A stretch of 64,000 nucleotides of DNA from Platanthera guangdongensis (Eukaryota > Streptophyta > Magnoliopsida > Asparagales > Orchidaceae), in assembly GCA_039583875.1 (NCBI GenBank), contig CM077159.1, positions 101,950,287-102,014,286 on the forward strand. The letters run 5' to 3'. The notes under the pieces were generated by a model. It saw only the letters and a list, made by a program, of their open reading frames with translations. It was not told the origin of the DNA and ran no database searches. Below, piece by piece: positions 43,300-63,494 of this stretch; position 1 is the stretch's first letter; each line of letters opens with the position of its first letter. The translations under genes were made by a program, and so were the position numbers.

Positions 43300-43390
43300 A
43301 ACATGTAAGTGATGCTTTGATTTTTAATAAAGTTCTTTAACACATCAGTGTTGTCACAATAAGTTTGCGTGAAGAAGTGAAGTGTACTTA

Positions 43391-43975
43391 GACCCCGAGC
43401 AGATCCCGCTGTCACGCTCTCACCTAGCTAACAGGGCTGGATGTCACTCGATGGTATCAACCCCTGGACCCCGTGCAGATCCCGCTGTCAGGCTCTCACC
43501 TAGCTGGCAGGGCTGGAAGTCACTCGGTGTCATCCTCCGGACCCCAAGCAGATCCCGCTGTCAGGCTCTCACCTAGCTGACAGGGCTGGAAGTCACTCGG
43601 TGTCATCCTTAGACCTCGAGCAGATCCCGCTGTCAGGCTCTCACCTAGCTGACAGGGCTGGATGTCACTCGATGGTGTCAACCCCTAGACCCCGAGCAGA
43701 TCCCACTGTCAGGCTCTCACCTAGCTGACAGGGCTGGATGTCACTCGATGGTGTCAACCTACGGACCCCGAGCAGATCCCATTGTCAGGCTCTCACCTAA
43801 CTGACAGGACTGGAAGTCACTCAGTGTCATCCTTAGACCCCGAGAAGATCCCGCTGTCAGGCTCTCACCTAGCTGACAGGGCTGGAAGTCACTCGATGGT
43901 GTCATCCTTGGACCCCGAGCAGATCCTGCTGTCAGGCTCTCACCTAGCTGACAGGGCTGGAGGTCACTCAGGGAA
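43391..43975. repeat. Eight-copy 72-76-bp hairpin repeat after integrase
   Basis: Copies start (GACCCCGAGC-type) at 43391, 43467, 43540, 43612, 43688, 43764, 43836 and 43911. Two length classes exist, about 76 (GATGGTGTCAACCC end) and about 72 (GGTGTCATCCT end). Most units hold CTGTCAG and CTGACAG 12 bases apart, a 7-base stem with a loop around CTCACCTAG. Variation among copies is mostly single bases. Confidence 0.92.
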
Positions 43976-47832: not shown

Positions 47833-49121
47833 GGTTTGAGGGTTTCAGGACGGGTTTGGTCCTGCGAGCGGGAGGCTCGGAATGAAATACTTGCATGTGC
47901 ATAAATATAGTGGCGGGGCATGCGGTACTGGTCGTTCGTCACACCGATGGCAGTACGGTGCACCAGGCGGTTGTGAGGGTTAGAGGGGCTAGTGGGTTGT
48001 TTTACACTGTGGTCTGGAGGACGATCCCCGATAACACACATCCGACCCAACAAGACCGACAGGTTGTCAGCAAAGTGCGTACGCGAGACTCTAGAGTGCA
48101 CCTTGGACGTGTACAGAGGCGTATGAGAGGGGTCTAAGGCTTGGTAGTGTGCATACCGGTCTAGAAGCGGAGACGCCCGCTCCGCTGCTGCCGTAGCCAC
48201 AGCGGTGGTACCCGAGAGTGATGCTAGCTCTCAAAAAGTGGGAACTAAATGTCTGTGATCACAGAGTCGTTGTGTGTGAGTTGCACTTGCCTGTGCATAA
48301 AATTGCATCATACATTCATTCATATTAGGTCATACGCTTCATAGATCTTTATCATATAAATTAGTATGGACTCTTTTATATGATAAGTTAAATTTCCTGG
48401 AAATCCTAACTTATATATTTGTATGGGCATTTATATAAGTTAGGGTACATTTGTGATGATAGTATAGTGGTAGTTTAGTTTATTTACTTGTTCATACTAT
48501 TGTTCTTTACTTCCTTTACTGTATTGCTCTTACTTACTACTTGTATCATACTTAGAACTGCTAGAGTAGATCATTGCTACTTGTTACAACTGCTAGTTAG
48601 ATCCTGTCACCAGCTTCCACTTTTGCTACCCCTTGTTGTCCTCCGCTTCGTCCTCCCGCCCGGTGCCTAGGAGCTGCGGGGCGAGGTGCGGAGGAAACGA
48701 CTTAGTCTTTTTGACTAATGGTCGGTGACCAACTATTTTTAGGAGCCCGTGGAGATGGAGCACCAGCACGTCGAGGCGGCAGGACTTGAGGAGCAGATAC
48801 CGCTTCAGCAGGCTACTACCACTACTGTGCGTTCTCAGGTGGGACGAGATCTGATGTTCTAGTATAGCTTCCGCTTTCATTTATTTTGAGAGAGAGTGAT
48901 TTTGATGTACTGGGCATAAGCCCTTATTACTCTTTCTTTGTACTCTTCTGTGGACTATATCGGTGTACTTTTCATTCCATTTATATGATTGTACTATGTG
49001 ACTTGTGGACTAGTGGATTTACATACTGTTTTACTTTTCTTCTCATATTGGCCTACAGGTTAAATGATCGTACTAGCCGGCAGGATCGGCGTGTTGCGGT
49101 GTCGACTAACCCGTGTGTTAG

Positions 49122-51425
49122 TGTAACACCCCCTATCCGTCGCATAACATATATCAGTAGGTCCGGCCGGGGCCCGACGCCATATACCACAGACAGACCG
49201 GGTGGTTACGTATGGAAACCATCCAACCAATCTCAACGTCCTACACAGAGCATTCTAGCAGAAGCAGTTTATAAAAGTTGTAAACAAGAACCCAGCATTA
49301 AAGCACGAATGTCCACTAGTACAAATTAGGAATGTTATACAAAAATACCCAAAACCGGCCTTAAGGCCTTACAAAATGTTTCACTTGAATATTACACGTT
49401 TTACAAACCACGGCACGCAGGCCGGTCATACATGAATAAAGCAGTAAACACTTCTACTTGGGCCTTCGAGGGCCAGCTTCGCAAAAAGGGCTTTAGCCCG
49501 CTATTGACCGCTTGGTCCAGCTGCACCTGCAAGTAACAAACCACCGCACGGTGGCAAAACAAGGCAACGGTCAGCAATGCTGACCAAATTATAACGATCC
49601 CGCCCCCAACTCGGGGCGGCGATGCTCCTTCCCTGCATTTCATTAGCATAAGCGAGCAATGTATAAATCCATAGCCATTTCATCACAGACGTTGGCTCGC
49701 ACGGCCACACGCCCCGTGCACTCAGGGCACATTCTCGGTGAACCGGTCTATGTCACGTCAATTTAAGCCATCAACATTCCAGACTCACCACCGCCAACTG
49801 ACGGCCAAACCTATGAGCAATTTGTCTTCTCGGCCTGGGTCACGACAATTTAAGCCATCAACCGCCGAAGACCCTACTCTATGCCGACGGTAAGTGCCAC
49901 GTGCCTTTAGGTCTCTTTAACCGAACGACATAGAACGGGTACGGTTCCATCTAACCCGTGCTCACATCGCAACGGCAATTTAAGCCATTTGCGCGGGTCA
50001 AACTTCCACCGAGTCTCATTTCCATCACAAGTCACATAACCCCGTTATGTTCAAGTTGGCTCTCAAGCCACCAAGTTGGCAAGATCTCGTATCCGCCCAG
50101 TTTTCCGGGTGCACCTTTGGGTTAGTCCCCAAGGCTCCATGCTGCAATCTACCGCGTAGAAAACCCGAAAAACAACCAATAGCACGGAGTCTTCTCCGGC
50201 CTTATGCAATGCAACATCACCGATACAGACTAACATGTCCGGGTAGGCTTCACACATCATGCCTATGTCCGTTCTCGCATACGGACTCTAAACAACGGGG
50301 ACTTTACATATCCACCCAAAGGAACGCCTCCAACTCTCCGCAAACTCGCGAGAGCGGGCTTCCTATGCTAAGAAAGAGAGCTATTCATGCTCAAGATGAG
50401 GATCGTTACCCTTGAGTTCCTCTTTGGCGCCATTGAAAAGTAATCGGATGAAAACCACCGCACTAGCGTTGCCTCCGTGGATCCGGAGTCGGCTCGCGAT
50501 TCGGAGCTCCGAAGCTCCTCCAATGGCGGATCTAGCTCCTTCTTCTTCCCTTATCTCTCCTCTCTCTCCAAGGATTTAGAAAGAGAACAAGTGAAGAAAA
50601 GTAAGGGTTTTCTAAGTCAAAACCCGGGTATATCCCTTCAGGAACAACCCCCAGCCATTGGATCTTCATTCAAAGAAATGAATGGCTTCGATTCGGGACT
50701 GAAATGCCCAATCTGGACCGAACACGGCCTGGCACACGCCCGTGTCCAGGGCCGTGTGCCGCATTCGCCGTCAAAATCGAATCACCTGGAACCTCACACG
50801 GGTATCGAACACGCCCGTGTTCAAACTGACACGGCCGTGTTCCACCTCACACGGCCGTGTGGCCGGCCGTGTACCCCATGATTTTCCCCCATTTTCAACC
50901 CGAGCACTGCACGGGTTCTAGGACACGCCCGTGTCCTTGCCCGTGTCACCTTGACATGCCTGGGCCCCAGGCCGTGTACACGGGACACTTCGTCGAGTGA
51001 AGATCGACGACTTGATGATACGGCCTTGGACACGCCCGTGTCCTAGGCCGTGTGCCCTGTCTCGACGATCGTCGAGTGAATCTCGACGACTCTCCGGGAT
51101 GATCGTCGACACGGGTCGACATGCCCTACGACACACCCGTGTCGCGGTCCGTGTGCCCATTCTCGACGAATCGTCGAGTATATCTCGACGACTCCGCGGC
51201 TAAGTGTCGACACGGGTCGACACGCCCTGCGACACGCCCGTGTCGCAGGCCGTGTGCCCATTCTCAGCGAATCGTCGAGAAAATCTCGACGACTTCGCGG
51301 CTAAGTGTCGACACACGCTTGACACACCCTGGGACACGCCCGTGTCCTAGGCCGTGTGCCTGTAGCCAGAACCCAAACTGGCCCAAAACGTCCCCCTTCG
51401 CTCCTTTGAGTTTCGGGGCGTTACA
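49122..51425 (-). repeat. 3' LTR of element 6
   Basis: Plus-strand termini are TGTAACACCCCC and GGGGCGTTACA. The ACACGG/CCGTGT palindrome array fills about 50720-51360. A long GC-balanced R-U5 covers 49122-50640 on this strand. The small frames here are not genes. Confidence 0.95.
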
Positions 51426-53802
51426 ACTCTCCCCCTCTTAAAAGAATTTCGCCCACGAAATTACATAAAGGAAAGACATGTACAAAACCAAAATTTGTAC
51501 CTGAGCGGAACAACTCCGGATACTCGTCAAGCATAGTCTGCTCTCTCTCCCAAGAGAGCTCCTCACGACCGCAATTGTCCCACCGGACCTTGACCATCCT
51601 GATCTCTTTATTGCGTAGCCGCTTGACCTCCGAGTCCTCAATCCGCGCGGGCTTGAGCTTTGTCGTTAGCCCACTATCCACCGGCACTTGATCAACCGCG
51701 ATCACCTGCGTAGGCTCTTGCACCGCCTTCCGAAGCACCGAAATATGGAATACATCATGTAAACCACTTAGCTCCACTGAAAGCTTCAACCTATAGGCCG
51801 CTTCACCAACTCGCTCCAGAACCTCGAACGGTCCAAGGTACCTCGGGCTTAGCTTTTTCAATCGCCGCACCCACGAGACACCCTTGAACGGCTTGATCTT
51901 TAAGTATACATAATCGCCCACAGCGAACTCCACGTTCATGTGCTTGGCATTATAGTACTTTGCTTGCCGGTCCTGAGAGATAAGCAACCTCTCCCGAATG
52001 GTTCTCACCAAAGAAGTAGCATCCTCCGCTTCCTATCGCTTATACAACTTTGACTCACCCGTTTCTAACCAAGACAACGGCGTGCGACATCTTCTACCAT
52101 ATAGGGCCTCGAAGGGCGCCATCTGAATACTTGCTTGGTAGCTATTGTTGTATGCGAACTCCACCAAATAAAGGTGGTCTTCCCATTGCTTTCCAAAATC
52201 CAAGACACACATGCGAAGCATGTCTTCCATGGTTCTATTGACCCTCTCGGTCTGCCCATCCGTTTGCGGATGGAAGGCTGTGCTAAACTTCAGCTTTGTT
52301 CCCAACATTTTCTGCACCAGCCTCCAATCATTGGACGTGAACTGCCCATCTCGGTCACTCACGATGCTGCGGGGCACACCATGAAGCCGTACTATGCTAT
52401 CCACATAAAGCTTTGCCAGCTTCTCCACCGGATCATCCTTCCTATGCGGAATAAAATGCGACACCTTCATTAATCGATCAACAACCACCCATATGGCGTC
52501 GTTTCCCTTTTGCGACCTTGGCAAACCGTGCACAAAGTCCATAGAGATGTCGTCGAATTTCCACTCCGGAATAGGCAAGGACTTAAGAAATACTCCCGGC
52601 TTTTGGCACTCCGCCTTTACCAAGGCGCAGGTTTGGCACTTCGCTACGTATAGCGCCACATCCTTCTTTAACCCCGGCCAGCAAAACAGTTTCTTCACAT
52701 AACGGTACATCTTCGTACTCCCCGGGTGAATCGAGTACTTGGTATGGTGTGCCTCGTACAACAACTCCACCCGTAAATTGCCCACACTTGGGACGCACAA
52801 TCGACCGTCTTTCCAAAGCAATCCGTCCTCCACGACGAATTGGGAATTTGACCCATCCAGAGCCTCTATCATGAATTGCTTCATATGAGCATCCATATCC
52901 AAAGCCTGCCGAATACGATCAGCCAGGTCATATTGGACTTCACTCCAATTCAGAACTGCTTCAGCACTTGATTGTCTGTCCACACAAACAATCTCCAACA
53001 CCTCCAACTCTCGCACCAACCGCTCATCGTGCACCGATAGCCAATTGGCTTGAGCTGGGGCTCGGCGACTCTGCGAATCCGCAACCACATTCCCTTTGCC
53101 AGGCACGTAGTGGATCTTGAATGTATAGTCCCCCAGGAACTCCATCCACCTACGCTGCCGCATATTCAGATCTTTCTGATCAATAAGGTACTTCAGGCTC
53201 TTGTGATCGGTGTAGATATCAATCTTCACACCGTACAAATAGTGTCTCCACAGTTTCAAGGCAAAAATCACGGCCGCTAACTCCAAGTCATGGACCGGAT
53301 AATTCCTCTCGTGCACTTTTAGCTGTCTCGAGCCATAAGCTATCACGCTTCCGTGCTGCAGTAGCACACAACCCAAACCGCTGCCTGAAGCATCGCTATA
53401 TATCTCATAGCCTTCGGTTCCACATGGCGAACTCAGCACAGGCGCCGTGGTCAACCGACACTTCAACTCCTCAAAAGCTCGCGCGCACTCCGGCGTCCAA
53501 ACGAACTTATGCTCCTTCCTCGTCAAAGTAGTGAGAGGTAACGCTAACCGTGAGAAGTTCTCTACAAAGCGCCTATAATAGCCGGCAAGCCCCAGAAAAC
53601 TCCGGACTTCCGCTACAGTAGCAATCTCAGGCCACTCCCGTATCGCAACAATCTTCGCCGGATCCACAGCAATACCCTCTCCACTTACTATATGCCCGAG
53701 GAACGCCACTGAGGATAGCCAAAACTCGCACTTCGAGAACTTGGCATACAACTGATTTCTCCTTAGCGTTTCCAACACCAAATGAAGATGCTTGAAGTGA
53801 TC
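51421..53802 (-). pseudogene. pol: Chromovirus pol: RT thumb, RNase H, integrase, chromodomain
   Basis: One frame runs from 53802 with a single internal stop, TAG at 52033-52035. It contains [20 protein letters not shown] (RT thumb), RNase H ([30 protein letters not shown]), integrase zinc-binding [15 protein letters not shown] and CQTC, and the core with DFVHGLP, SDRDGQF and TERVNRT. The C-terminal part has SWVRRLKKLSPRYLGPFEVL then a chromodomain-like end (IRMVKVRWDNCGREELSWER). The order and end are those of Tekay-type chromoviruses. The TAG is one C-to-T from CAG. Confidence 0.93.
51426..51443 (-). other. Polypurine tract of element 6
   Basis: The minus strand reads CTTTTAAGAGGGGGAGAGT directly before TGTAAC of the 3' LTR. 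The pol frame reads through it and stops at TAA in the LTR's first bases (51421-51423). Confidence 0.85.
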
Positions 53803-54869
53803 TTACTCACTTTGCGAGTACACCAAAATATCGTCGATGAAGACGATCACGAAATGGTCCAAGTACTCCCTGAACGTCCTGTTCATCAAATCCATGAATA
53901 CTGACGGCGCATTAGTCAGCCCAAACGGCATGACCGTAAACTCATAATGCCCGTATCTCGTACTAAACGCTGTCTTCGGGATATCACTCTCCCTTATTCG
54001 CAGCTGATAGTACCCAGCCTTGAGGTCCAACTTCGAGTACACCGTCGACCCGACTAACTGATCAAAGAGATCATCAATCCGGGGGATCAGGTACTTGTTC
54101 TTCTCCGTCAGCTTGTTTAGCTCCCGATAATCAATACATAGACTCAAGCTTCCGTCCTTCTTCTTAACAAAGAGGACCGGTGCGCTCCAAGGCGAAGAAC
54201 TCGGGCGCACATACCCTTGCTCCAACAACTCTTGCAGTTGAACTTTCAGCTCCACCATTTCCTTAGGCGCTAGCCGATACGGAGATCGTGACACAGGCTT
54301 TGCACCTGGCACTAGCTCGATCGTAAAATCTATCTCCCGTTGAGGCGGGGCTCCAGGAAGATCTGCGGGGAACACATCAGGGTATTCCGATACCACTGAA
54401 ATACAATCCAACGCGGGCTTCGGCTTTGCAACCTCCACTAGTGTAAAGAACAGTTCTGCTCCAGCACGAACCGCCTTCACCACCTGAAGAGCAGACATCA
54501 ACGTCTTGCTCGACCCCATTAAGCCCGTAAACGTCGTCTCACGACTCGCTCCCAGCTTAACTTCCTTGCTACCGCAATCTATATGGGCCTGCTGCTCCGA
54601 GAGCCAGTCCATGCCAAATATGACGTCGAACTCTACTAACGGAAGTAAAGACGCCCGCAGGTCGAACTCCTGCTCCCCAATACGAGTCTTAACATCGCAG
54701 ATCCTATTCGCTCGCATCGAACACCAATTGGGCAACAACACATCCAACTTATCCTTCGCCATCGAAGAAGGGACTCCGATGCGTGATATAAATCCTTCGG
54801 ACAAGAAGGAGTGTGAGGCTCCCGTATCAAAGAGTGCTCGTGCCGGATTTTCACAAATCAATACAAATC
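53803..54869 (-). pseudogene. pol: Chromovirus pol: protease and RT
   Basis: The frame enters from the intron-like segment. Protease is [16 protein letters not shown]; the RT block has [53 protein letters not shown] and the active site FIDDILVYS. It stops at TAA 53803-53805, immediately after the active site, and the same frame continues beyond as RT thumb. Without splicing there is no ATG near its start. Confidence 0.93.
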
Positions 54870-54945
54870 CTAAACAAGCAGTGGTAAGGTAACATGTGCA
54901 TAACAAGTATTTAAAGAAATTGACTTGCTATAAATTAAATCGTAC
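54870..54945 (-). other. Intron-like GT-AG segment between gag and protease (76 bp)
   Basis: On the minus strand the segment starts GTACGATTTAATT at 54945 and ends CTGCTTGTTTAG at 54870. It is about 30% GC by my count, against GC-rich flanks. In the unspliced frame TAA occurs three codons in. Removal places gag and protease in one frame, splitting a codon after base 1 (phase 1). In this copy the last exon base is T rather than G, which makes that codon TGA. The equivalent segment in element 5 has the same place and phase. Confidence 0.7.
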
Positions 54946-56062
54946 ATGTCACCACATCAGCTTGTTTAATGGCCTCCTGTTGGCCAAGATTATAGACCCT
55001 TGGTTGGGCCGGAGCATAATGGGATGCGGTCGACTCCACCGCCTTTCCCTTCTCTTCATAAGTAGCTCCCCGCCTCCTCTCGGACTTAGGACGTCCGCTC
55101 CAACAATCACGGGCGAAATGCCCCGTCTTTCAACATGTAAAACACACACCCGGGGTCCGACCCGTAGTCGCCCCAGAAGCACCAGAAGGAGCTGGACCCG
55201 AAGTCCTATGCTTCTTGAAAGACCTCCGATAGCCGGACTTTGAAGCAGTCGGCACTCTGAACTCAGATTTCTTCTCACCCAAGCTTTTCTTCGCTTGCAC
55301 GCTCTTCATGTCCTTCTCCAAGGACCGGGCAGTATTGACCAAGTTTAAGAAACTTTGCGTCATCGGCCCCGAAAGCAATAATCTCAACTCATCCCTCAGC
55401 CCTTCATAGAAGCGATTAGTCTTGCGCTCCTCATCCATGATGGTGGAGCTAGCATAACGACTCAGACGAGTAAACTCGTGGAGATATTCATCCACGCTCC
55501 TCTCACCCTGAACCAACTTCAGGAACTCATTCTCCAATGCTATCTTCTGCGTCGAAGGGAGGTATCTAGCCAAAAATAATCTTGAGAACTCCTCCATCGA
55601 GACATCACAAAGTTGCCTACCTCTCAGTAAGTGCAGCTCCAATCCTTCCCACCACATCCTCGCTTCGCCGTCCAGCAGGAACGTAGCGATGGTGGTCATT
55701 TGCCACTCCTCCGTCTCCGTCGCTGTCATGACTCTCTTCACCCTGGAGAGCCAGCCTTCAGCCTGAGATGGGGTTCCCAACCCCGAGAATAATGGAGGGT
55801 TAAAGCTCATTACATGCTTCAGCTGCCTCTCAGTTGCCCTCCTTGGCACTATTGGTTCCACAACCACTTGATCCACCCTCCTCGGCTCAGCCTCTTGAAG
55901 AGGTACTTGCTCCATCACAGGAGCGGGCTGCTGCGCTTGCCTTCCAGGCTGCGCATTTATCACGGCCAACACCGCTTCAGCCACCAATCGTATATTTTCA
56001 GCCGACAGAGGTGTTGCAGGAGCAACATCCGGTGCACTACTAGCCTCAGAAACTCGGCGTTC
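54946..56062 (-). pseudogene. gag: Chromovirus gag
   Basis: The open frame runs from 56062 (after a TGA at 56063-56065) to the intron-like donor at 54946. No ATG is seen at its start, so the start is lost or upstream. Gag core motifs: FNPPLFSGLGTPSQAEGWLS, FLLDGEARMWWEGLEL, then YLPSTQKIALENEFLKL and RFYEGLRDELRLLL. A zinc knuckle CFTC-stop-KTGHFARDC has TGA (55130-55132) at the first of the four spacer residues. That TGA is one C-to-T from CGA or one G-to-T from GGA. Confidence 0.9.
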
Positions 56063-56300
56063 TCACGGCCCAACACCACTTCTGGTCACCTATAGTGGTA
56101 CAAAACACCATTAAGCGACCAAATAAATTACAAACAACAATTATAGGAACACGTAGGTTCCTCAAACACGAGTATTTTCATTCCTAAGTGGACATTCATG
56201 GGTTCTTTTACCATTATAACGATGACGCACACAATGTGCTCACCACCCCTTAAAAAGAATTCGCCCACGAATTCACTTTAAGCCCGACCAAAACCAGTAG

Positions 56301-56310
56301 TCTGATACCA
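56301..56310 (-). other. Primer binding site of element 6, tRNA-Met
   Basis: The minus strand reads TGGTATCAGA, three bases after the 5' LTR end (spacer ATT). Confidence 0.9.
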
Positions 56311-56313
56311 AAT

Positions 56314-58616
56314 TGTAACACCCCCTATCCGTCGCATAGCATATAGCAGTAGGTCCGGCCGGGGCCCGACGCCATATACCACAGACAGACCGGGTGGTTA
56401 CGTATGGAAACCATCCAACCAATCTCAACGTCCTACACAGAGCATTCTAGCGGAAGTAGTTTATAAAAGTTGTAAACAAGAACCCAACATTAAAGCACGA
56501 ATGTCCACTAGTACAAATTAGGAATGTTATACAAAAATACCCAAAACCGGCCTTAAGGCCTTACAAAATGTTTTACTTGAATATTACACGTTTTACAAAC
56601 CACGGCACGCAGGCCGGTCATACATGAATAAAGCAGTAAACACTTCTACTTGGGCCTTCGAGGGCCAGCTTCGCAAAAAGGGCTTTAGCCCGCTATTGAC
56701 CGCTTGGTCCAGCTTCACCTGCAAGTAACAAACCACCGCACGGTGGAAAAACAAGGCAACGGTCAGCAATGCTGACCAAATTATAACGATCCCGCCCCCA
56801 ACTCGGGGCGGCGATGCTCCTTCCCTGCATTTCATTAGCATAAGCGAGCAATGTATAAATCCATAGCCATTTCATCACAGACGTTGGCTCGCACGGCCAC
56901 ACGCCCCGTGCACTCAGGGCACATTCTCGGTGAACCGGTCTATGTCACGTCAATTTAAGCCATCAACATTCCGGACTCACCACCGCCAACTGACGGCCAA
57001 ACCTATGAGCAATTTGTCTTCTCGGCCTGGGTCACGACAATTTAAGCCATCAACCGCCGAAGACACTACTCTATGCCAACGGTAAGTGCCACGTGCCTTT
57101 AGGTCTCTTTAACCGAACCACATAGAACGGGTACGGTTCCATCTAACCCATGCTCACATCGCAACGGCAATTTAAGCCATTTGCGCGGGTCAAACTTCCA
57201 CCGAGTCCCATTTCCATCACAAGTCACGTAACCCCGTTATGTTCAAGTTGGCTCTCAAGCCACCAAGTTGACAAGATCTCGTATCCGCCCAGTTTTCCAG
57301 GTGCACCTTTGGGTTAGTCCCCAAGGCTCCCTGCTACAATCTACCGCGTAGAAAACCCGAAAAACAACCAATAGCACGGAGTCTTCTCCGGCCTTATGCA
57401 ATGCAACATCACCGATCCAGACTAACATGTCCGGGTAGGCTTCACACATCATGACTATGTCTGTTCTCGCATACGGACTCTAAACAACGGGGACTTTACA
57501 TATCCACCCGAAGGAACGCCTCCAACTCTCCGCAAACTTGCGAGAGCGGGCTTCCTATGCTAAGAAAGAGAGCTATTCATGCTCAAGATGAGGATCGTTA
57601 CCCTTGAGTTCCTCTTTGGCGTCATTGAAAAGTAATCGGATGAAAACCACCGCACTAGCGTTGCCTCCGTGGATCCGGAGTCGGCTCGCGATTCGGAGCT
57701 CCGAAGCTCCTCCAATGGCGGATCTAGCTCCTTCTTCTTCCCTTAGCTCTCCTCTCTCTCCAAGGATTTATAAAGAGAACAAGTGAAGAAAAGTAAGGGT
57801 TTTCTAAGTTAAAACCCGGGTATATCCCTTCAGGAACAACCCCCAGCCATTGGATCTTCAGTCAAAGAAATGAATGGCTTCGATTCGGGACTGAAATGCC
57901 CAATCTGGACCGAACACGGCCTGGCACACGCCCGTGTCCAGGGCCGTGTGCCGCATTCGCCGTCAAAATCGAATCACCTGGAACCTCACACGGGTATCGA
58001 ACACGCCCGTGTTCGAACTGACACGCCCGTGTTCCACCTCACACGGCCGTGTGGCCGGCCGTGTACCCCATGATGTTTCCCCATTTTCAACCCGAGCACT
58101 GCACGGGTTCTAGGACACGCCCGTGTCCTTGCCCGTGTCACCTTGACACGCCTGGGCCCCAGGCCGTGTACACGGGACACTTCGTCGAGTGAAGATCGAC
58201 GACTTGATGACACGGCCTTGGACACGCCGTGTCCTAGGCCGTGTGCCCTGTCTCAACGATCGTCGAGTGAATCTCGACGACTCTCCGGGATGATCGTCGA
58301 CACGGGTCGACACGCCCCGCGAAACGCCCGTGTCGCGGGCCGTGTGCCCATTCTCGACGAATCGTCGAGTATATCTCGACGACTCCGCGGCTAAGTGTCG
58401 ACACGGGTCGACACGCCCTGCGACACACCCGTGTCGCAGGCCGTGTGCCCATTCTCAGCGAATCGTCGAGAAAATCTCGATGACTTCGCGGCTAAGTGTC
58501 GACACACGCTTGACACGCCCTGGGACACGCCCGTGTCCCAGGCCGTGTGCCTGCAGCCAGAACCCAAACTGGCCCAAAACGTCCCCCTTCGCTCCTTTGA
58601 GTTTCGGGGCGTTACA
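56314..58616 (-). repeat. 5' LTR of element 6
   Basis: Same termini and content as 49122-51425. The palindromes lie at about 57910-58555: for example CCTGGGACACG / CGTGTCCCAGG near 58520-58545 and GACACGGG/CGTGTCGC units upstream, spaced about 100 bases. Confidence 0.95.
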
Positions 58617-58621
58617 GTTAG

Positions 58622-58704: not shown

Positions 58705-58712
58705 TGGTATCA
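58705..58712 (+). other. Primer binding site of element 5, tRNA-Met type
   Basis: TGGTATCA follows the LTR end by three bases (AAC). The match stops after eight bases (then CTTGAAC), weaker than in element 6. Confidence 0.75.
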
Positions 58713-58885
58713 CTTGAACAACGATCATATGAGAAAGAAGTCCACAACAAGGGACCACCCCCGCCCGAGCATTAGTTTGCGGACAAACTATGCAGCGGAA
58801 GCAGTAGTGTGCCCATGTGCAAAAGTCACATAAATGGTCCATAAAGTACAATGTGTTAGGCCAGTTCTGTTTTAACCTTACCTTT

Positions 58886-59996
58886 ATGCAACGTCCACAG
58901 GTCGCCGCGCCGCAAAATGTGGCTCCTCCCCCTCCAGCTGCCACTCCATTTCTACATACGGAGATGGGGCAGACCTTGACGGCGATTCTAGATGCCTTCA
59001 GATCCCAGCAAGTCCCGACTCCACAACCAAATCCGGGGTCGAGCTGGCTGAGTGCATTCAAGAGCCTGTCCCCACCGACGTACCGTGGGATAGAGGATGC
59101 GGTAAAGACGGAAGAATGGCTGGAGGCCATACACGAGATCTTAGCAGGCATCAGCTGCCCAGTCGGCAAGGCAGTACCTCCAGCCACCTCTGCGCTGAAG
59201 GCTCATGCGAAGAGATGGTGGAAATCAGTCCGGGAGTCTACTTATGCGGACTTTGAGCTGTCAGAGATATCATGGGAGGAGTTTGGCGATGTATTTCTGG
59301 AGCACTTCGTCTCTACTACGGACAGAGATGCCTTGGAGGAGAGGTTTTTGAATCTCAGGCAGGGGACCAGATCGGTGATCGAGTATCAGAGAGAGTTCTC
59401 TCATTTGGCCAGGTTCGCAGGGATTCAGGATACCGATGATAGGAGGTATGCCAAGAGGTTCTACCGGGGCCTCAGGGACGACTTGAGGCAGGCCTTGCTG
59501 TTCATTTCTCATGGCACTTCTAGGCAGATCATCGAGATGGCAAAGAAGCTGGAGGCTGACCAGCTGATGGTGCGAGCCGGAGGGAAGAGACCATTTGATT
59601 GGTCGACATCAGTAGAGAGCAGCAGGGGCTCTCAGAGAGGCAGGACTATCGGATACAAGAAGTGTGGGGGACGTCGTCGTCCCAACTTCAGGCAGGAGCA
59701 GGGGCCTCCTCCAGCATTGGCTCCCCCACCTCTACAGATGCATGATCCGAGGAGACAGGATGACCGAGGCCACCGACAGGTAGTTTGTTACAATTGCCGC
59801 CAGCCCGGGCACATCAGGTCGGAGTGCCCACATCGATTCCATCCCCCTCCTCCTCCACCTCCAATGGCCCAAGTACAGCAGGGCTGAGGCCGAGGACGAG
59901 GCCGAGGCCGGGGATATCACGACAGGAGACGCGAGCAGGAGCAGATATACGCCTTGGACCTCACAGAGCAGAGGAACCCCGAGGAGGTTATCACAG
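58886..59996 (+). pseudogene. gag: Chromovirus gag with zinc knuckle
   Basis: The ATG at 58886 is in frame and follows the leader; earlier codons lack ATG. The product has a Pro/Ala-rich N-terminus, then SLSPPTYRGIEDAVKTEEWL, PPATSALKAHAKRWWKSV, FLEHFVSTTDRDALEERFL, SVIEYQREFSHLARF and RFYRGLRDDLRQALL. A CCHC knuckle, VVCYNCRQPGHIRSECPHR, is intact near residues 295-315. TGA at 59885-59887 cuts the frame in a Gly-Arg repeat, and is one C-to-T from CGA. The frame goes on to 59996, the intron-like donor. Confidence 0.92.
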
Positions 59997-60093
59997 GTAC
60001 TTAAAGTTAATTATTGAATTTCTTGAATTTTCAATTATATATAGTACCTGGAACTATGGGATAACAGTTAACTTTCACGTAAACAAACCTCAG
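59997..60093 (+). other. Intron-like GT-AG segment between gag and protease (97 bp)
   Basis: The segment starts GTACTTAAAG at 59997 and ends AAACAAACCTCAG at 60093. It is about 28% GC by my count. The gag frame meets TAA at 60002-60004, two codons in. Removal joins G59996 to GC (60094-60095), a Gly codon, and the frame then runs straight into protease. GTTAAC at 60067-60072 could serve as branch site. The donor context is ACAG|GTAC. Confidence 0.75.
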
Positions 60094-62063
60094 GCATAGT
60101 TATGATCAGCGGCAAGCCCGCTCATACTCTCTTCGACACGGGTGCTTCGCACTCGTTCATATCCGAGGCCTTCATCGACGGACTCGAAGGCGTGGAGAGG
60201 TTTCCTGGACTAGAGATGAGGGTGCGTCTACCCGATGGGTCAGAGCTGCGGACCAGTGCACATTGTGATATGGAGGCCGAGATTGGCGGCAAGGCATTTG
60301 AGGCGCCAGCAACTATTCTGAAGCTGCAGGACTTCGACTTGATCTTGGGCATGTCATGGTTACATCGGAACCATGCTCAGATAGATTGTCCGTCCAGGAG
60401 GATCACGCTAAGGCATGGCGACTCTCATGTTATCATCGAAGGTATTCAGCCTATTTGCCACCTATTATTATCTTCTGTACAGGCTGTGAAGGCCCACGAG
60501 CAGGGCGAAGAAGTTTATCTTATCTGCTTCGAGATGGTGGGAGCAGAGACGACTATCTCAGATATTCCGGTTGTCCGGGATTTCTCCGACGTATTCCCGG
60601 AGAAATTGCCCGGGCTACCACCTGCTAGAGACTTGGATTTCAGGATTCAGCTAGTGCCGGGAGCGAGGCCGATGTCCCCGGCACCCTACAGGATGGCTCC
60701 CAGGGAGTTAGCAGAGTTCAGGACTCAACTACAGGAGCTAGTCGAGTCAGGATTTGTGCGGCCCAGTTCATCGCCATGGGGAGCGCCAGTTCTCTTTGTG
60801 ATGAAGAAGGACGGGTCATTGCGACTATGCATAGATTACCGGGAGCTGAACCGGTTAACGGTCTGCAACACCTATCCTCTGCCTCGGATAGATGAGTTAT
60901 TTGACCAGCTGTAGGGAGCCTTCTGGTTCTCCAAGCTAGATTTGCGATCCGACTACTACCAGCTCCGTATCAGGGAAGAGGACATACCGAAGACGGCATT
61001 CAGTTCACGCTATGGATTATACGAGTTCACGGTGATGCCTTTTGTGCTCACGAATGCCCCTGCCGCATTCATGAGTCTAATGAACCGTGTATTCGAGCCT
61101 TTCTTAGACCGCTTCGTGATTGTATTCATCGACGACATTCTTATATATTCTCGGACTCAGGAGGAGCATACAGAGCACCTGGCGCAGGTCTTGCAGAGGC
61201 TGAGGGAGACCCAGATGTACGCAAAATTTTCAAAGTGCCAGTTCTGGCTACAGGAGGTGGCTTTCCTGGGGCACACGATCAGTGGGGCTGGATTAGCAGT
61301 GGACCCAGCCAAGATAGAGACAGTGAGGGATTGGCCACGGCCAAAGACCGCATCTGACATCCGCAGTTTCTTGGGACTAGCAGGGTATTATCGCAAGTTT
61401 GTGGAGGGATTCTCGAGGATAGCACTCCCCCTCACGTCCTTGACGAAGAAGGACGCAGATTTTGTTTGGTCAGAGCGGTGCGAGACGGCTTTTCAGGAGC
61501 TGAAGGACCGACTCATATCCTCCCCCATTCTTGCGCTTCCATCCGGGAGCGAAGGATTCCAGATCTACACGGACGCCTCTTATCAGGGGATGGGTGCAGT
61601 CCTGATGCAGCATGGACATATTATTGCTTATGCTTCAAAACAGTTGAAGAAGCATGAGCATAACTATCCAGTACATGACCTAGAGCTTGGGGCTGTGGTT
61701 TTCGCCCTAAAGATATGGAGGAATTACTTATACGGGATTCATTATGACATCTTTTCAGATCACAAGAATCTTAAGTATATCGATACACAGAAGGACTTAA
61801 ACCTGAGACAGAGGAGATGGCTGGAGTTCCTCTGTGATTATGACTACAAGATCTACTACCATCCGGGAAAAGCGAAGACGGTAGCAGATGCTTTGAGCAG
61901 GAGGGCCGACACTTCTGGACCAGAGCCCCGGTTGATGTCTATAGAGCTGCTACAGATGATGGAGGACATGCACATTACCATGGTATCCGAGACCGAGCCA
62001 GTAGTGTATCGAGAGTATTTGAGCTCAGTGATCAGTGGCGATGATATACAGGAGCGCATCTGA
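60094..62063 (+). pseudogene. pol: Chromovirus pol: protease, RT, RNase H
   Basis: The first ATG (60102) lies just before protease [19 protein letters not shown] motifs: [40 protein letters not shown], then after TAG at 60912-60914 [16 protein letters not shown], active site FIDDILIYS and [20 protein letters not shown]. RNase [36 protein letters not shown] and [11 protein letters not shown] at 62061-62063 ends this part. Both stops are one C-to-T change from CAG and CGA. Confidence 0.94.
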
Positions 62064-63494
62064 GCACATCAGAGGCTGGATGCTGCGTTACAACCGATTT
62101 TTAGTGCCCTAGAGAGGGGCAAGGTCGAGGACGACACGCTACAGTATGATCTTCTTCGATTCCGTGGGCGAATCTACATACCAGCAGGGGGCAGTATCCG
62201 GGATGACATACTCAGAGAGGCACATTGCTCGAGATATTCAGTGCACCCCGGCATCACCAAGATGTGGGCAGATTTGCGGAGGTCTATGTATTGGCCCGGG
62301 ATGAAGAGGGAGATCACGGATTTTGTGACCCATTGCGAGACCTGCCAGTATGTGAAGGCAGAATGCAAGAGCCCGGGAGGTTTACTACAGCCACTGCCAG
62401 TTCCAGAATGGAAGTTCGAGGACATTGCTATGGACTTTGTACACGGATTGCCTCGCTCTCACTCTGGGCATGATTCTATATGGGTCATAGTGGATAGACT
62501 GACCAAGGTAGCGAGATTTATTCCAGTTTGGAAGGATGCCCCAGTTGCAGTTCTGGTGAGATTATTTGTGGAGCAGTATGTCAGATATCATGGCATTCCC
62601 AGGACGATTGTTTCGGACCGTGATGGTCGGTTCACTTCGAGCGAGTGGAGGGTCGTGCATGCTTACTTGGGATCTCAGCTTACTTTTAGTACCGCCTTCC
62701 GTCCGTAGACCGACGGACAGACCGAGCGGACCATCCAGACCATGGAGGACTTACTCAGACTATGCATTTTGGATATGGGGAAGCCTTGGGAGAGGCTGCT
62801 GCCACTGATTGAGTTCTCGTACAATAACAGCCACCAGGCTAGCATCAGGATGGATCCATACGAGGCACTTTATGGGAGGAGATGCCGGACACCGCTATCA
62901 TGGGTTCAGGATGTGGATACCATGGCTCTTGGACCGGATTATATAGAGGATACTGAGGCTCAGATTCGATTGATCAGAGATCGGCTACAAGAGGCCCAGA
63001 GCAGGCAGGCAAAGTATTATGATGCTCGGCACCAGAAGGTGGAGTTCCAGGTTGGAGACAGAGTATTCTTGAAGATACGTCCAGTACACGGTGTCTCTCG
63101 GGTGCGGAGGCACAAGAAGCTCAGTCCGCGATACATGGGGCCATACCTGATCCTGGAGCGGATCGGCCCCTTGGCTTACCGACTGCAGCTGCCACCGGAG
63201 TTGGGTGCATTACATGACATCTTCCATGTCTCTTCCTTGCGAAGAGCTCTCCTTCGGCCGGAGCAGCACATTACTACTACAGCCGGACCGGTAGAGCCTG
63301 ACAGATCAGTTAAATTGGAGCCGATCTGGATTGACGATACAGCCATCCGAGTGTTGCGGAAGAAAAAGGTCCCTCTTGTGAAGGTGCTGTGGTCCAACCA
63401 TGGACGGGAGGAGCACACTTGGGAGCCGAGGGATCTGATGCTGGAGCAACACCTGGAGCTATTCGCATCAGGTACCTTCAAGTCATTTTTTTAA
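62064..63494 (+). pseudogene. pol: Chromovirus integrase with chromodomain-like end
   Basis: It is in the same frame as RT-RNase H. Zinc-binding part: AHCSRYSVHPGITKMWADLR and HCETCQYVK. Core: DFVHGLP (first Asp), SDRDGRFTSSEW (second Asp), TERTIQTMED (Glu). TAG at 62706-62708 interrupts the core and is one C-to-T from CAG. The C-terminus has VRRHKKLSPRYMGPYLILER then VLRKKKVPLVKVLWSNHGRE and ending RDLMLEQHLELF, a chromodomain-like end as in Tekay. The stop is at 63492-63494. Confidence 0.93.

Follow-up and report, generated by a model that had tools for sequence, protein, structure and literature searches.

A putative phase-1 intron between gag and protease in chromovirus-type retrotransposons of the orchid Platanthera guangdongensis

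Introduction

CRR, the centromeric retrotransposon of rice, is a chromovirus. It has been described as a Gypsy element with spliced transcripts (PMC3735527). In Ogre, a Ty3/gypsy element of the Tat lineage, genomic copies retain an intron that is spliced out of only some of the transcripts, and this allows the whole polyprotein to be read. This intron lies between GAG-PROT and RT-RH-INT, with the ORFs 274 bp apart on average (PMC6317226). The barley element BARE1 (Ty1/copia) has a 104-nt intron, with CAG/GTAT as the donor, beside the end of gag, and its partial splicing leads to a Gag-only product (PMC3735527). Splicing also makes a Gag message in EVADE, a Ty1/copia element of Arabidopsis (PMC12786077). 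Bianca (Ty1/copia) has two ORFs with 172 bp between them on average (PMC6317226), and the Tekay chromoviruses of Beta (Bongo) carry gag and pol in one continuous ORF (PMC3605345).

Here we analyzed two Ty3/gypsy-type elements, called element 5 and element 6, in a stretch of 64,000 nucleotides of P. guangdongensis DNA (the window), in which a preliminary description had pointed to intron-like segments between gag and protease. As in Ogre, the putative intron is present in the genomic copies and its removal would restore the polyprotein; unlike in Ogre, which is a non-chromovirus, it lies between gag and protease and in chromovirus-type elements (PMC6317226). The strategy would resemble that of Ogre, but with another intron site. 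BARE1 is a single ORF in which splicing makes Gag alone, whereas here retention would do so; the GC contrast between segment and flanks resembles that of the BARE1 intron (PMC3735527). In EVADE, of the copia superfamily, splicing removes protease and ends Gag, unlike in the orchid elements (PMC12786077). Bongo shares its domain order with the orchid elements, but the ORF is continuous in the Beta chromoviruses and split here (PMC3605345). Bianca differs in belonging to the copia superfamily, and no splicing is described for it in the section of PMC6317226 consulted. Among the titles, abstracts and passages of the open-access literature that were examined, we recognized no description of a gag-protease intron in any chromovirus, Tekay included, and within that literature the earlier statement that none was known for Tekay-type elements stands.

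Results

The two elements are nested, with element 6 lying inside element 5. Their features in the window are as follows.

49122..58616, minus strand: element 6, inserted within element 5
About 49122-51427 and 56311-58616: LTRs of element 6, 97.9% identical
55133..56062, minus strand: part of the gag reading frame of element 6 (Pfam gag)
54870..54945, minus strand: putative phase-1 intron of element 6, 76 bp, CAT/GTACGA ... GTTTAG/G
53803..54869, minus strand: protease and start of RT of element 6 (Pfam RVP_2)
58808..59887, plus strand: gag reading frame of element 5 (Pfam Retrotrans_gag and zf-CCHC), broken by a TGA at 59885-59887
59888..59996, plus strand: 3' end of element 5 gag, up to base 1 of the split Gly codon, the last exon base
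59997..60093, plus strand: putative phase-1 intron of element 5, 97 bp, CAG/GTACTT ... CCTCAG/G
60094..60914, plus strand: protease and start of RT of element 5 (Pfam RVP_2), with the FDTG motif
60915..63494, plus strand: remaining pol of element 5 in three frames with stops between them (RT-RNase H, integrase, C-terminus)

Both window copies are decayed, element 5 having the TGA in gag and a stop that closes the first pol frame at 60914. The two are distant from each other, with 71% identity in a piece of RT (137 residues) and 29% in gag. GTTAG stands on both sides of element 6 (49117-49121 and 58617-58621) and is likely a 5-bp target site duplication. Elsewhere in the window, a further gypsy-type element, with its RT match at 40.5-41.4 kb, is followed downstream by a tandem array (43387-43971) whose period is close to 75 bp.

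We presume that the elements belong to Tekay on the basis of the TGTAAC start of the LTR, a putative tRNA-Met site and a chromodomain-like end. As to a tRNA-Met primer site, TGGTATCAGA was seen beside the element 6 LTR and TGGTATC at 58705. The C-terminus of element 5 pol was judged by eye to be SH3-like and chromodomain-like, and the frames scanned gave no Pfam hit for a chromodomain. The additional RNase H of Ogre was also sought: no such Pfam family was found in the nine frames scanned, and there is one RT-RNase H region.

According to the preliminary description, element 5 has a 97-bp GT-AG segment of about 28% GC exactly where gag should read into protease, element 6 has a 76-bp GT-AG segment of about 30% GC at the homologous codon, and both split a codon after its first base and carry an early in-frame TAA. 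All of this was confirmed from the letters, coordinates included, with GC contents of 0.278 and 0.303. Gag of element 5 reads into the segment as GGT ACT TAA, with the TAA at 60002-60004, and gag of element 6 as TGT ACG ATT TAA, with the TAA at 54937-54935 on the minus strand. The pol frames open at 60072 in element 5 and at 54927 in element 6, and gag and pol frames overlap in neither. In element 5, 12 residues separate the split Gly from the F of FDTG. It had further been proposed that unspliced RNA makes Gag and spliced RNA Gag-Pol. These products do follow from the reading frames, but element 6 itself has T at exon base -1 (54946, ACAT/GT), and its literal splicing would create a T/GA stop.

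Conservation of the segment was determined in the families of element 5 (A) and element 6 (B), the labels A to G being our own. The two genome searches gave 2863 and 2656 candidates at first look; 40 matches were scored per family, and of these we fetched the 20 that ranked highest once the window copy itself was set aside. The segment was found in 20/20 further family-A copies and 20/20 further family-B copies, in a sample that was selected by similarity to a segment-bearing query and cannot show how frequent copies lacking the segment are. An alignment of many junctions had been suggested as a check; including the window copies, GT was kept in 42/42 (21/21 in each family) and AG in 41/42 (20/21 in A, 21/21 in B). 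Segment length was 97-99 bp in family A and 75-77 bp in family B, a variation of 1-2 bp among copies. Six distinct indels were counted in 178 segment columns vs five in 1238 flanking columns (Fisher p 0.00098), a density about eight times that of the flanks. None of the six segment indels was a multiple of three, as compared to 3/5 in the flanks. This indel pattern fits non-coding DNA set between coding DNA. Divergence of the segment was 0.029 in family A vs 0.037 and 0.039 in its flanks, and 0.022 in family B vs 0.031 and 0.023. Substitution density in these two families was thus not clearly different between segment and flanks, in either direction, and gave no sign of neutrality; as segment divergence is not above that of the flanks, only the indels point to neutrality.

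The T at exon base -1 was present in 6/21 family-B copies (the window copy, L031, L033, L035, L038 and L047), with G in the other 15, and removal of the segment would not restore the polyprotein in these six. The T sits on two intron haplotypes, GTACGA and GTACGG, and with it the joined codon would be a stop. Candidate explanations are a Gag-only subline, recombination and recurrent mutation. Only in the family-B copies with this T do the frames give the BARE1-type outcome, with spliced RNA encoding Gag alone.

The segment had been described as shared by two families. Both have it, but this was an understatement, as we found it in seven (A-G). Twenty 10-kb stretches, two from each of ten contigs at the set positions 50 and 100 Mb, held five gag-protease junctions detectable with the element 5 and 6 queries (L057, L060, L063, L065, L066). 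The segment was present at the same Gly codon in 5/5, and both GT and AG were kept in 4/5, the donor being lost in L063. Eleven copies from the seven families were tabulated, leaving out L063 for its lost donor and L073, whose upstream part is not gag. In all 11, the start of exon 2 precedes the F-D/N-T/S-G motif by 12 residues, and gag meets its stop between the 1st and the 14th codon past the split codon. After removal of the segment the split codon would be Gly in 10/11, and a stop in element 6. Length (71-118 bp across the tabulated copies) and sequence of the segment vary between families, while its place, phase and ends are constant. The retention of the GT-AG ends in families A and B and the fixed distance to the motif exceed chance. 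In families A, B, D, E, F and G, gag and pol are not connected by any frame. In family C (L057:2560-2960 and L065:6380-6780, the latter on the minus strand) the pol frame reaches 301-304 nt upstream of the acceptor without a stop, overlapping gag.

A genome search with Pfam RVP_2 gave 98,709 candidates, of which 150 matches were scored. Just past the split Gly, at profile position 21-23, 52 of the 150 begin, and in 14 of these 52 the open frame measures exactly 1132 aa. The remaining 98 matches start at profile position 3-6. Six matches of each kind were read. Among those starting at position 21-23, five had the segment, and in L073 the upstream part was unrelated to gag. All six starting at position 3-6 run from gag to protease in one frame without the segment (open frames of 1224-1568 aa), and their Gly-to-motif spacing is the same. 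Single-frame elements are common in this genome; some lineages have the segment and others do not. The usual Tekay organization, with gag and pol in one ORF, was seen in these six controls (6/6) and not in families A-G, which are split by the segment.

Protein searches returned ten different proteins, six of them from Platanthera zijinensis. Two of the six, from related families, end just past the site (P0002 with ITGTCKIY and P0009 with VTGTV). This is where intron retention would stop Gag, in line with the prediction of the intron model. The remaining four P. zijinensis proteins end before the site. Relatives were also sought in viral contigs, with 0/92 stretches confirmed.

Plant U2-type introns are U-rich and GC-poor in comparison to exons. 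In the 11 tabulated copies GC was 0.27-0.43 in the segment vs 0.47-0.64 in the flanks, with a T content in the segment of 0.31-0.49. Donors and acceptors were scored against the plant consensus. Donor positions +3 to +6 matched AAGT in 14/28 (p 0.004 if all bases are given equal odds, an assumption that favours AT-rich sequence). The acceptor was YAG in 7/7 families, and the nearest AG upstream of it was 19-54 nt away. Donor quality was mediocre, with GTCAGT or GTCAAT following CTG in family D and GTTCGA in family F. Donors of moderate strength are expected of introns that are often retained, and these may hint at such retention.

Splicing of the segment, together with occasional reverse transcription of the spliced RNA, would be expected to leave genomic copies that carry the exact junction. 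We therefore searched for a 24-mer joining the gag end of element 5 to its protease start in family A, allowing up to three mismatches. It was found at 18 places, six exact, five with one mismatch, four with two and three with three, while the reversed 24-mer, used as a control, was found at 0 places. Two of the 18 places, both exact (L086 and L087), were read beyond the 24-mer with 200 bp around each. In both, the base corresponding to 59996 runs straight into 60094 and the segment is precisely absent; identity to element 5 is 93% in gag and 94-96% in protease. Copies without the segment had been named in the preliminary description as an observation that would speak against an intron. Such copies do exist, but the two read in family A lack the segment exactly at GT/AG, which is the outcome expected from the copying of spliced RNA. 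L086 and L087 share three sites that are absent from the 21 intron-bearing family-A copies, and one event may lie behind both. Some junction matches are paired, about 41 kb apart (C6:94535952 and C6:94576687) and about 29 kb apart (C4:176797534 and C4:176826816); the C6 and C4 pairs share mismatches and are perhaps duplicates.

A second lineage gave a similar picture. L075, L076 and L080 lack exactly a 94-bp GT-AG piece that is present in L066, to which they are 89-91% identical in exon 2 and 66-68% in exon 1 across the junction. The aligner sets the gap two bases earlier, which is an equivalent placement.

A tree of RT was built from 137 residues of this genome's elements only; it is weak at depth and is without L066, which had no RT match. 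Intronless L075 groups with intron-bearing families D and E (support 97) and is placed beside E (74), which favours intron loss in that lineage. Intronless L077 and L078 were at weakly supported places.

Discussion

From its ends, phase, position and conservation, the frame-changing indels inside it and the precise intronless copies, of which the exact junctions of family A are the strongest evidence, the segment is very probably a spliceosomal intron, retention of which would give Gag and removal Gag-Pol, as is dictated by the reading frames. We consider the following account, taken as a whole, to be likely. A short U2-type spliceosomal intron would lie within the two-gene transcript of these chromovirus-type elements. 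When it is retained, translation would end a few codons downstream of the Gly, yielding Gag alone; when it is removed, the split Gly codon would be rejoined and Gag-Pol would be made. Unspliced RNA would be the genome that is normally copied, given that the segment is present in every one of the 40 copies fetched for families A and B. We infer that splicing was the source of the intronless copies, that expressed elements would be spliced in part, and that this would set the ratio of Gag to Pol.

The segment could also be a real intron that is not a ratio switch. Splicing would then be a rare by-product, or would serve RNA export or the sorting of RNA between translation and packaging, and the excess of Gag would be set otherwise. 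Retention of the segment in all 40 fetched copies agrees with this, as spliced RNA was then seldom the copied template, and so do the single-frame relatives of 1224-1568 aa in the same genome, in which such a switch is dispensable. However, with the gag stop so close past the split codon in 11/11 copies, retention would yield Gag alone, and six of the families have no frame at all leading from gag into pol. We regard this reading as rather unlikely.

It is very unlikely that there is no splicing, with the segment being a spacer between two genes and Pol being made by reinitiation or internal initiation past the gag stop. Families D, E and F (L069-L071, L074, L072 and L066) do have an ATG in the pol frame at a distance of 16-19 nt upstream of the acceptor, and the first such ATG of family A is the third codon past the split codon, so reinitiation could serve families D, E and F, and perhaps A. 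The ATG in D, E and F would extend the pol ORF to a start of its own. In families B and C, however, the interval from the gag stop to the catalytic motif has no pol-frame ATG; the earliest one is at exon 2 residue index 35 or 44. In family G the ATG 70 nt before the acceptor is followed by an in-frame stop. As a general account reinitiation was rejected for the lack of a usable ATG in families B, C and G. Nor does it predict the exact intronless copies of family A.

Those copies could instead have arisen by deletion between direct repeats, in DNA or during reverse transcription, from an AT-rich insert that was never spliced. The two sides of the segment indeed share CAGG or AGG. However, the identical deletion, exact to the GT-AG ends, would be required in two lineages, and the constancy of one codon and one phase in seven families, with segments that differ in length and sequence, would be left unexplained. 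Since the same exact event is seen in two lineages and the ends are common to seven families, splicing is the simpler reading, and we hold deletion between repeats to be highly improbable.

A programmed frameshift, readthrough or bypass linking gag to pol has next to no probability: a -1 shift could be imagined only in family C, where the pol frame overlaps gag, but the other 6/7 families have no overlap, segment length shifts by 1-2 bp between copies, and the two family-C copies had no slippery heptamer of the scanned form in the gag register before the junction, so that both frameshift and stop-codon readthrough were rejected.

Returning to the intron as a splicing switch, we are evenly balanced on a wider proposal, in which the intron at one fixed gag-protease codon would be an old expression device shared by several chromovirus lineages of this orchid, and the copying of spliced RNA would sometimes turn two-message elements into single-ORF ones able to found lineages, switching the gag/pol strategy within a genome. 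The intronless copies would be genomic records of reverse-transcribed spliced RNA. To our knowledge, how plant Ty3/gypsy elements make an excess of Gag over Pol is largely an open question, and single-ORF chromoviruses suggest no ready solution. In the elements described here, an intron that can be removed from between gag and protease would be a direct and testable answer. As segment-bearing and intronless relatives coexist in one genome, they would form natural pairs in which the worth of such a switch may be gauged.
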